Shown: positions 1 through 3,365 of the stretch, in pieces
Layout: every line of letters begins with the position of its first letter
Numbering within the stretch: position 1 is the first letter of the stretch
Notes under the pieces: generated by a model
Told to the model about the DNA's origin: nothing
Databases searched by the model: none
The model's input: only the letters and a program-made list of their open reading frames with translations
Virus record (IMG/VR): IMGVR_UViG_3300032287_001974
Location: 1-64,000 of that record
Source of the DNA: a virus
Direction: 5' to 3' (one strand)
DNA: 64,000 bases
Program-made: the position numbers and the translations under genes

Positions 1-45
1 CCTGGCATATAGCCAGCTCAGCAACAAGCAACCAACCCAACAAAA

Positions 46-73
46 AAACCTCACGCCCGAAGACGTGAGGTTT
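46..73 (-). terminator. Rho-independent terminator of leftward operon C
   Basis: A perfect 10-bp stem (AAACCTCACG / CGTGAGGTTT, arms 46-55 and 64-73) with an 8-nt loop. On the minus strand it is followed by a run of seven T (42-48). It lies 12 bp after the stop of the leftward gene 492-85, so it ends that transcript. Just beyond it is the 12-mer CCAACCCAACAA (32-43), which recurs in the palindromes at 601 and 1561. Confidence 0.85.
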
Positions 74-84
74 CTCTGCAAAAC

Positions 85-492
85 TTAAGGCGCTTGCACT
101 AGCCGAAGGGCGTGATAGGCACCTAACTCATCGTGGCTTGAGCGAACAACCTCTAGGATGCCGTTGTCAAGCAACTTGAAGCGAAGAGTGAAGTCACCGT
201 CGAGAGTGAGAGACGACCAAACATCCTTTACGGATTCAGGCTCCCATCCACCTCTGCCGGCTAGGCGTCGCCATGTTGCGCCCGAATACTCGACCTCAAC
301 CATGTACTCGCCTAGAGTCTTGTCACCTAGCCATTGTTCGATGACATACTCAACATGGTCGACTTGTTCGGTGAAACAGTCGCCATAGCAATACTCAGCG
401 GGCGTTGCCTCTCCCGTCTCATCATTCCAAACCTCGCAAATGCAGTCGCTAGTAAGCGTGCCGTTTGCGATTACCGTTGATTCCTGAACCAT
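85..492 (-). CDS. Hypothetical protein, 135 aa, acidic, early leftward operon C
   Basis: Function not recognised. The protein is acidic and soluble-looking, with no membrane segment. The N-terminal half has spaced cysteines (C17, C19, C35, C39 region), and the C-terminal half looks like alternating beta strands (SLTLDGDFTLRFKLLD). The ATG start at 492 has a GGGAG ribosome site 4-5 nt upstream. It is the only gene of the leftmost leftward operon: the shared promoter/leader element lies upstream at 534-592 and a clear terminator follows. Small leftward operons like this in actinophages are usually early host-takeover genes; that role is inference from position. Confidence 0.75.
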   Translation of the reverse strand: MVQESTVIANGTLTSDCICEVWNDETGEATPAEYCYGDCFTEQVDHVEYVIEQWLGDKTLGEYMVEVEYSGATWRRLAGRGGWEPESVKDVWSSLTLDGDFTLRFKLLDNGILEVVRSSHDELGAYHALRLVQAP

Positions 493-533: not shown

Positions 534-592
534 AGACTATTAGGTAATAGCCTTGCTATCAGAGATAGCTAATCCGTTACCAAACCGTTATA
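534..592 (-). promoter_or_regulatory. Promoter/leader element of leftward operon C (third copy)
   Basis: This copy aligns with the elements upstream of operons B (1489-1549) and A (2772-2825). On the minus strand it reads GCTATC-TCT-GATAGC, a perfect small hairpin, then CTATTA-CC-TAATAG, a second perfect palindrome. A TATAAC -10 candidate lies at 592-587. The neighbouring GTTACCAAACCGTTATA block is the same motif as in the other two copies but in plus orientation here, so promoter direction is less certain for this copy. Confidence 0.55.
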
Positions 593-600
593 CATGCCCT

Positions 601-670
601 CAACCCAACAAACAGCCAACCAGCCGCCTATTATTTAGGGGGATCGGCTGGTTGGCTGTTTGTTGGGTTG
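601..670. repeat. Long perfect palindrome 1 (26-bp arms, 18-nt loop)
   Basis: Arms 601-626 and 645-670 are exact reverse complements over 26 bp, starting CAACCCAACAAACAGCC on the left. The loop, 627-644, contains TTATTTAGGGGG. The right arm ends in TTGTTGGGTTGG (660-671), identical to 1639-1650. It lies after the end of leftward operon B and before the promoter of operon C, followed on the plus strand by two GC hairpins and the linker GGGAACACCC. It is far longer and more perfect than an ordinary terminator and has no T-run next to it. Confidence 0.9.
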
Positions 671-683
671 GCCTCCCATGCCT

Positions 684-756
684 CTCAGCGGGGCTGTGCG
701 CCCCGCTGAGGGCTTTTGGGAACACCCAGCCACTCCGAGGGGGCGGAGTGGCTGGG
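684..756. other. Two GC-rich hairpins joined by GGGAACACCC (module 1)
   Basis: The first hairpin has arms CTCAGCGGGG (684-693) and CCCCGCTGAG (701-710). The second has 13-bp arms 725-737 and 744-756 around AGGGGG. The linker GGGAACACCC (718-727) is exactly repeated at 1688-1697. The pair sits directly after the stop of leftward operon B (763). The short T-runs (GGCTTTTG, GGGGGCTTTC) face the plus strand, so as terminators they would suit rightward better than leftward transcripts. Confidence 0.8.
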
Positions 757-762
757 GGCTTT

Positions 763-918
763 CTATGCGTGCCAGTAGTCCCATTCTTGGTCACGCAAAA
801 CTTGTGCTCCTTCGATACAGTCGGCGCACTCCAAATCGTAACCCTCGCGGTCGATTAGTTCCTCGACTTCTTGGTCACAAGTTGGGCAAGTGATTGCTTC
901 GTCGTTTTGTTCGGTCAT
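763..918 (-). CDS. Small zinc-binding protein, 51 aa
   Basis: Function not recognised. Two CxxC pairs (CPTC near residue 11 and CADC near residue 32) suggest a single zinc ribbon; the C-terminus is aromatic (DYWHA). I chose the ATG at 918 rather than the in-frame one at 948: a strong GGAGG lies 7 nt upstream, and the start overlaps the upstream gene's stop as ATGA. It is the last gene of leftward operon B, so it is translationally coupled to its neighbour. Confidence 0.75.
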   Translation of the reverse strand: MTEQNDEAITCPTCDQEVEELIDREGYDLECADCIEGAQVLRDQEWDYWHA

Positions 919-1130
919 GGCGTTACCTCCTGCGGTTCTTTGAGCCATTCATTTATTCTAGTGCGGAAGCCCTCGAAACTCATTTCTATCGTGGGCGTGT
1001 TGCTGGCGTAGTCCCAGACATTTATCAGGTCGTGGGGCTCGGTGTGGTTCTTGTTGCTTACTTCGATTAGAGCACCGCCAGACCACTCAAAACGCAAGTG
1101 CTCGGTTTCGGCGATTAGTTTGATTTCCAT
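915..1130 (-). CDS. Hypothetical protein, 71 aa
   Basis: Function not recognised. A small mixed alpha/beta-looking protein without cysteines or membrane segments, rich in W and acidic residues. The ATG at 1130 is preceded by GGAGGG at good spacing. Its stop overlaps the start of the 51-aa zinc protein. Second gene of leftward operon B. Confidence 0.75.
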   Translation of the reverse strand: MEIKLIAETEHLRFEWSGGALIEVSNKNHTEPHDLINVWDYASNTPTIEMSFEGFRTRINEWLKEPQEVTP

Positions 1131-1195
1131 TTAGTTCCCTCCAAAGGATTATTAGGTGAGCCAGTTTTAGGACTTGGCTCAGGTCACAGGAAAAT

Positions 1196-1426
1196 CTAGA
1201 ACCCTAGACTTTTGACTACCCAGAAATCGCCGTCTTTCCAGCGGTTTCGGGTCGCCAGACTACCAACGCCAGCGACCCTGATTTCCCTGACGCCATCAGC
1301 GTCAGTGGTTACCTCAGTCACTTCACCGGTAATGCTGGTGTCGGTTAGCCCGTGGCGTAGTGCCACCTTAGCACCGACTACAACCTGAGCCAACAACTCA
1401 GTCTGTTCGACTTGTAAAGTTTCCAT
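1196..1426 (-). CDS. Hypothetical protein, 76 aa, predicted beta-rich
   Basis: Function not recognised. The pattern (VVVGAKVALRHGLTDTS, then EVTEVTTD and REIRVAGVG) looks like a small SH3/KOW-type beta barrel, and it ends in FWVVKSLGF. First gene of operon B; its ATG lies about 60 nt downstream of the shared leader element, behind a purine-rich GAGGGTGAGAA site. Confidence 0.7.
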   Translation of the reverse strand: METLQVEQTELLAQVVVGAKVALRHGLTDTSITGEVTEVTTDADGVREIRVAGVGSLATRNRWKDGDFWVVKSLGF

Positions 1427-1488
1427 GTTCTCACCCTCTCTCCGTAGGCTCCCGCACTTTGCGTTTCCTCTCGCCTACAAAAACTAAT

Positions 1489-1549
1489 CTAGTGCCTAAT
1501 AGCCCTGCTAACAGACATAGCAGAAAAATAGTTATAACAGATTGGTAAC
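1489..1549 (-). promoter_or_regulatory. Promoter/leader element of leftward operon B
   Basis: Read on the minus strand it runs GTTACCAATCTGTTATAAC (likely -10 TATAAC), then a hairpin with arms CTGCTA and TAGCAG around TGTCTGT, then GGGCTATTAGGCACTAG. The block CTATGTCTGTTAG and the end GGCACTAG are shared exactly or nearly so with the operon A element. No good -35 hexamer is visible, so activation or a phage sigma/anti-sigma scheme is possible. Confidence 0.6.
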
Positions 1550-1560
1550 GACACGCCCGA

Positions 1561-1646
1561 CCCAACAAGTTATCAAATCGTTATAAAGCAATCGGCAACC
1601 CTAGTAATAGGCCGATTGCTTTATAACGATTTGATAACTTGTTGGG
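1561..1646. repeat. Long perfect palindrome 2 (36-bp arms, 14-nt loop)
   Basis: Arms 1561-1596 and 1611-1646 are exact reverse complements over 36 bp, extended by one A-T pair. The loop is 1597-1610. Each arm contains GTTATCAAATCGTTATAAA, which matches the promoter core of the leftward operons (GTTAYCAWWYYGTTATAA) and points into the loop. It lies between leftward operons A and B and is followed by the same two-hairpin unit as palindrome 1. Confidence 0.9.
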
Positions 1647-1651
1647 TTGGT

Positions 1652-1726
1652 GCCCCTGCTGGCATGGGGGATACCAGCAGGGGCAGGGGGAACACCCGCC
1701 CTTGACTAGGGGGAGCCAAGGGCGGG
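1652..1726. other. Two GC-rich hairpins joined by GGGAACACCC (module 2)
   Basis: First hairpin: GCCCCTGCTGG (1652-1662) with CCAGCAGGGGC (1674-1684), loop containing GGGGG. Second hairpin: CCCGCCCTTG (1695-1704) with CAAGGGCGGG (1717-1726), loop containing AGGGGG, followed on the plus strand by GGCTTTTA. Layout and linker match module 1, although the stem sequences differ, so structure rather than sequence is conserved. It sits 6 bp after the stop of operon A. Confidence 0.8.
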
Positions 1727-3176: not shown

Positions 3177-3365
3177 ATGGAACCAGGACGTCAATTCGGT
3201 AAGCTAATCAACTTCACTCGTCGCCGCGCTCAGAAGCGTGATGAGCAGATCAGTCAGAGTACTCCCTTCGGTCCAATGAGCGCATTCCGCGATGACGCAG
3301 AGAACCGCATCAAGCATCAGGAAGTAAAGAACCTAGAAGAGCAAGCCAAGAAAGAAGATAAGTAA
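3177..3365 (+). CDS. Hypothetical protein, 62 aa, highly charged
   Basis: Function unknown. Basic N-terminus (FTRRRAQKRDEQ) and a charged helical C-terminus (HQEVKNLEEQAKKEDK). GGAG lies only 2 nt before the ATG, so initiation may be weak or atypical. First gene after the consensus promoter; stop overlaps the next ATG (TAATGG), a junction used again and again in this cluster. Confidence 0.7.
   Translation: MEPGRQFGKLINFTRRRAQKRDEQISQSTPFGPMSAFRDDAENRIKHQEVKNLEEQAKKEDK

Follow-up and report, generated by a model that had tools for sequence, protein, structure and literature searches.

Perfect palindromes with fixed ends and changing cores at unit boundaries in uncultured phages, candidate joints for cassette exchange

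Described hairpin sites and the present locus

Phage genomes are mosaics, and to our knowledge defined joints between their modules have rarely been seen. Promoter early stem-loops (PeSLs) of T4-type phages were reportedly described by Arbiol in 2010 and Comeau in 2014. As far as the accessible text of two sources goes, a PeSL combines a terminator stem-loop and a promoter at the cassette boundaries of an accessory region whose modules are shuffled by recombination (PMC4503421, PMC3950731). The integron attC site likewise provides one palindromic, sequence-variable and structure-conserved site per cassette, with the end consensus RYYYAAC ... GTTRRRY and extrahelical bases whose role has been described (PMC3053210). 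Cluster O mycobacteriophages carry many intergenic copies of a 17-bp palindromic repeat, dense in the leftward region, with reported repeat-to-repeat deletions (PMC4351075), and in the haloarchaeal virus HGTV-1 a TATA-box-like plus inverted-repeat motif precedes many ORFs, a regulatory repeat that its authors compare with PeSLs (PMC3950731).

Here we describe a palindrome array in an 85.6-kb (85,632-bp) phage contig, of which 64 kb, the whole stretch of DNA that was analysed, is called the window. By analogy the locus seems to work like PeSLs, the layout and the shuffling being known from them and the palindrome part apparently new, and we lean, with no great confidence, towards reading the palindromes as DNA-level cassette joints of a PeSL-like kind. 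This likeness is drawn from the layout, terminator followed by presumed promoter, and from the shuffling, with breakpoints falling at the element here (the chimaera at L019:1287 and the adjacency test below). Compared with what the accessible PeSL text describes, there is an additional perfect palindrome of 24-40 bp, separate from the terminator, its 12-bp ends fixed and its core replaceable, and OmpR-family-like boxes take the place of T4 early promoters. The Cluster O repeat is one short fixed sequence, at times within genes, whereas here a long core differs in nearly every copy; HGTV-1 is an archaeal virus with a conserved motif, and the accessible part of that source describes no hypervariable perfect palindrome. 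The literature searched yielded no description of a perfect palindrome whose ends are fixed and whose core can be replaced.

Most copies have an attC-like end, GTTGAGT, GTTGGGT and GTTAGGT fitting the consensus and GTTACGT (L126) and GTTGTGT (L018) departing from it. Identity with attC was nevertheless rejected, as the arms lack extrahelical bases (65 of 74 palindromes are perfect) and no tyrosine recombinase (PF00589) was detected in five records, which may be incomplete and in which controls were positive. Elements of the IS200/IS605 or REP/RAYT type were likewise set aside, the Y1 transposase (PF01797) being absent from the same number of records.

Palindromes, terminators and boxes

The first-pass annotation had reported two modules of a palindrome and two GC hairpins, and both were recovered, at 601-756 and 1557-1726 (Table 1). 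Its arm length of 26 bp holds for palindrome A, while the 36 bp given for B becomes 37 bp of perfect pairing (1560-1647), or 40 bp with one mismatch. The short blocks it had listed are indeed shared, with TTGTTGGGTTGG exact at 660-671 (copy A) and 1639-1650 (copy B), the linker exact in both copies and GGGGGCTTT facing the plus strand in both. The contig holds three further members, C, D and a half palindrome at its left end. A whole-contig scan for near-perfect inverted repeats (arms of at least 16 bp, loop of at most 60) returned only A, B, C and D, all of which end in TTGTTGGGTTGG or in a version differing from it by one base. Arms here measure 26-37, whereas the longest in any of 30 dinucleotide shuffles of the 85.6-kb genome was 16 (median 11). 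Read leftward, the contig's left end runs from a terminator through a T-run into TTGTTGGGTTGGTTGCTTGTTGC... and stops, which is best read as a fifth palindrome, E, where the assembly broke. The leftward order is B, A, (E), D, C. That the palindromes themselves are an assembly artefact was ruled out, because identical ones are shared by L014, L015 and L020, which come from separate metagenomes. No overlapping Rfam family was found.

Table 1. Positions of palindromes and neighbouring features in the contig
Feature	Position	Strand	Remarks
Palindrome A, type 1	601-670 (arms 601-626/645-670)	none	26-bp arms, 100%; 18-nt loop; ends CAACCCAACAA / TTGTTGGGTTG
Palindrome B, type 1	1557-1650 (arms 1557-1596/1611-1650)	none	40-bp arms, one mismatch; 14-nt loop
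Palindrome C, type 2	83323-83412		contig's other end
Palindrome D, type 2	85055-85138		contig's other end
Palindrome E, type 2, half only (TTGTTGGGTTGGTTGCTTGTTGC...)	1-43	-	cut by the contig's left end; missing half presumed
Leftward intrinsic terminator of gene 85-492	41-78	-	CCTCACG hairpin + T7; abuts end motif of E
Two GC hairpins after A (684-710, 725-756)	684-756	none	terminator position of leftward gene 763-948
Two GC hairpins after B (1651-1685, 1695-1726)	1651-1726	none	terminator position of leftward gene 1732-1941
Linker GGGAACACCC, exact	718-727 and 1688-1697		
11-bp-period direct-repeat box TATAACGGTTTGGTAACG	575-592	-	directly leftward of A
11-bp-period box, opposite orientation (TATAACAGATTGGTAACG)	1533-1550	+	leftward-downstream of B
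Leader/promoter-region repeat	537-568	-	downstream of A; more copies 1489-1520, 2772-2803
Accessory gene, 135 aa, family F10	85-492	-	behind different palindromes in L019 and L115
Three-gene unit (76, 71 and 61 aa)	763-1426	-	between B and A

With two pattern scans the collection grew to 74 distinct palindromes, among which 71 different arms occur. An initial scan with short spacing had given coding coincidences only, and wider-scan matches in L094, L097, L100, L110, L112 and L114 were discarded as such. Type 1 palindromes (A and B) have the layout CCAACNNAACAA, core, a loop of about 13-25 nt, complementary core and TTGTTNNGTTGG, and in type 2 (C, D and E) the ends are reversed, with a loop usually of 26-40 nt that often consists of a small GC hairpin and an adjacent A-rich stretch. 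Along the arrays of L016, L017, L019, L020, L105, L115 and the window contig, type 1 always precedes type 2, the switch falling at different genes. The fixed 12-bp end TTGTTNNGTTGG is present in nearly all palindromes of the set, and in an alignment of 61 copies, whose anchoring on this motif bears on the result, 10 of its 12 positions are invariant and the two central ones vary. This central dinucleotide is near-uniform within a phage despite differing cores (AC in L126; GA in L016, L105, L115 and L116). Next to the end the core often consists of an 8-nt unit in duplicate (TAGCCNNN), and 46 of 61 arms hold a perfect 5-nt repeat with a period of 7-9, compared with 2% after shuffling. The arms of a few unusually long palindromes (36-64 bp) also contain operator-like repeats: the window copy at 1557-1650, with TATAACGATTTGATAAC at 1568-1585 and 1622-1639, L104:1171-1256, and L115 (reverse strand, 389-528).

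Pairing is almost without exception Watson-Crick (1877 of 1886 pairs over the 74 palindromes), the nine mismatches being 3 G-T, 3 A-C and 3 others. At nearly every variable core position of the 61 aligned copies three or four Watson-Crick pair types occur with almost no mismatch, a covariation that strongly supports the earlier proposal of a selected structured or cruciform element in which sequence differs while structure persists. The combination of uniform ends with cores that vary but are always self-complementary suggests recognition by sequence at the ends and by structure in the core. Moreover, the scarcity of wobble pairs favours maintenance of the arms at the DNA rather than the RNA level, although it is no proof, since template switching at hairpins (quasipalindromes) can, according to the accessible text of two studies, itself perfect inverted repeats (PMC7202029, PMC3820800).

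A typical leftward unit consists of one or more genes, a terminator hairpin, the palindrome, a box with an 11-bp period and a leader, followed by the next gene or genes. A T-tailed sense hairpin stands ahead of the palindrome in 52 of 62 units, compared with 18 in shuffled sequence. The palindromes themselves do not have the form of intrinsic terminators (a GC hairpin and a U-run in the direction of transcription), which most of the separate upstream hairpins do have. Beside A and B the T-runs lie on the plus strand only, which had been held against leftward termination, but close analogues in L104 also have a leftward hairpin without a T-run, so that a terminator is not excluded by their lack. 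The GC hairpins, which occupy the relatives' leftward terminator position, are hence best read as terminators of the neighbouring genes rather than as belonging to a rightward RNA, and the antisense-RNA option found no support. At the start of the L020 array (3231-3317) two end motifs flank not a single palindrome but a terminator and a different hairpin.

An RNA-level role would be that host RNase III cleaves the 24-31 bp stem formed by the palindrome in leftward read-through transcripts, so that neighbouring units are separated or 3′ ends protected. The stem length suits a two-turn RNase III substrate, and the position between units and the retention of structure under varying sequence are as expected. 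Nevertheless, with the sense terminator before the palindrome and the box beyond it, most transcripts should exclude the palindrome, wobbles are far fewer than RNA selection usually leaves (a scarcity that template switching could also produce), and the fixed ends are left unexplained; we regard such processing as unlikely.

The box sits 2-20 bases past the palindrome in the leftward sense, at a near-constant distance. In L017, L019 and L020 it is GTTCACCTNNTGTTCACC (e.g., L017:6075-6092), a PHO-box-like repeat ahead of many accessory genes; for Streptomyces coelicolor, 11-nt direct repeats of the heptamer GTTCACC have been published as the PHO-box core (PMC4415409). In the window phage, L016, L105 and L115, and judged by eye in L126, the box is TATAACGATTTGATAACG-like and resembles direct-repeat MtrA sites of Streptomyces (PMC13189361). 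Other group members have 11-bp repeats of the TATAACGATTTGATAACG or CTGGGAAC type where L017, L019 and L020 have PHO-box-like ones. The boxes are thus OmpR-family-like, suggesting control by a host OmpR-family regulator, and the accessory genes of these phages may answer to two-component regulators of the host; no OmpR-type DNA-binding domain was detected in the phage contig. Sigma70-like hexamers are not enriched downstream of the palindromes (7.4 vs. 7.6 shuffled), and the promoter position is therefore presumed. A short hairpin (GTAGCC...GGCTAC-like) recurs in many unit leaders shortly ahead of the RBS, in the window at 526-497 (minus strand).

The palindrome might instead be an operator, a phage regulator binding the inverted pair of TTGTTNNGTTGG motifs and controlling the next unit, for which the fixed ends, the near-uniform centre within a phage and the steady spacing to the box speak. 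Such an operator would not require perfect, ever-changing complementary arms, and gene families served by the type 1 end arrangement in one phage have the opposite, type 2 arrangement in another, which makes it quite unlikely.

Arrays in relatives and probable exchange at the palindromes

Relatives were reached through a 260-aa DUF1281-like gene (83.9-84.7 kb, between D and C), which led to IMG/VR contigs with palindrome arrays; none were found via the small neighbour genes 85-492 and 1196-1426. Such arrays, of up to nine palindromes, occur in at least seven other uncultured phages, with about one palindrome per unit boundary in L014-L020 and others. Thus the layout is conserved in relatives, while the linker GGGAACACCC, found neither elsewhere in the contig nor in any fetched relative, is private to the window phage; the copy number makes the packaging site once considered unlikely. 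In complete-sized relatives all confirmed copies lie within a single 6-8 kb stretch of the 87-88 kb genome (37.3-45.6 kb in an 87.3-kb record; 82.2-87.8 kb in an 88.6-kb record). The nearest cultured phages are Streptomyces Borockviruses such as BRock (tail sheath at most 43% amino acid identity, DNA polymerase 40%), so that an actinobacterial host is likely. No close DNA relative was found among cultured phages, the palindromes were found neither in BRock nor in the examined parts of LuckySocke, and a scan of 84,980 prokaryote genomes for the type 1 pattern returned no match.

Comparison of L020 with L019 at six matched positions showed flanks mostly 85-96% identical around cores that are 47-79% identical at five of the six; the sixth core is identical (L020:7950 and L019:3052), and core turnover is therefore not universal. 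Conversely, nearly identical cores occur in dissimilar flanks, namely 98% with flanks of 60/47% for L020:8585 and L016:1630, and 95% with flanks of 55/51% for L019:1287 and L098:1076. The junction at L019:1287 is chimaeric, the upstream flank of L020:5610 (63/65) and the downstream flank of L020:6253 (~97%) enclosing a third core, a unit having been gained or lost at the palindromes. Loops occur in both orientations and are inverted at the matching sites L016:4559 and L105:4572. Furthermore, gene order breaks more often at palindromes than within units: gene neighbours are kept in other phages in 72 of 100 comparisons inside a unit and in 20 of 54 across a palindrome (Fisher p = 3e-5, for comparisons that share ancestry and are not independent). 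Core turnover with kept flanks, the chimaera and the gene-order breaks together point to exchange taking place at palindromes, and of the roles first proposed they favour the recombination site.

The same cores in unrelated flanks and the two loop orientations would also suit selfish, MITE-like mobile hairpins inserting between terminator and promoter. However, neither Y1 nor a tyrosine or serine recombinase was detected in the five records, and there is no copy beyond the array, no empty site was found and boundaries carry about one copy each, so that we consider mobile hairpins distinctly improbable.

A possible mechanism of cassette joining

Under the cassette-joint reading, the accessory region would be a row of small leftward transcription units joined at palindromes, each a DNA element with a fixed 12-bp end and a free yet self-complementary core, able to fold into a hairpin or cruciform in single-stranded or supercoiled DNA. 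Exchange between copies, within or between phages, would swap whole units, and cores could be replaced or inverted independently of their flanks. All five records tested contain RecA; together with the failure to detect site-specific recombinases and Y1 there, this favours homologous exchange focused on hairpin joints, with phage-encoded RecA the most likely agent, probably acting on shared ends and stalled or broken hairpins. In the endonuclease VII search no control responded. We infer that recombination at the palindromes is active, that they may promote exchange rather than merely tolerating it, and that some protein probably reads the end motif. Against such joints, core turnover could stem from template-switch mutation under weak constraint, with no driving role for the palindrome; RecA exchange needs no conserved end; crossovers could sit in nearby homologous boxes and terminators; and there is the one identical matched core. 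A more specific and tentative possibility is a hairpin site of fixed 12-bp ends and arbitrary self-complementary core, read by a putative phage factor, which, attC-like without the recombinase, would permit the reshuffling of cassettes as well as replacement or inversion of the joint. That the elements are ordinary unrelated repeats, terminators plus palindromes generated by mutation and without function of their own, accords with the template-switching reports cited above, as far as their accessible text goes, but is very improbable and already disfavoured by the restriction to unit boundaries and by fixed ends and fixed neighbours in many phages.

If true, the more specific reading, a recognised hairpin site, would make the palindrome a recombination joint of a new class, letting uncultured phages reshuffle accessory cassettes. 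With 74 distinct copies whose ends are fixed and whose cores change, and with chimaeric junctions mapped, targeted and random models of exchange can be tested directly, and the copies form an unusual natural data set on the upkeep and renewal of perfect palindromes in DNA.

Some minor features of the contig may be added. The array ends with an AAA_5 (MoxR-like) ATPase beside a VWA-domain protein (L012 15395-17458 and 17463-18902; contig ~79.4-82.9 kb, minus strand), a pair conserved in relatives (families F4 and F12). TCGAACANNTGTTCGAACA, which resembles an actinobacterial SOS (LexA) box, occurs twice, 34 bp apart (2831-2849 and 2865-2883), in the space separating the leftward array from the rightward structural genes. 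The window also encodes a phage tmRNA (51040-51371; tag AESRSAFALAA), which lies among Met, Asn and Val tRNAs.
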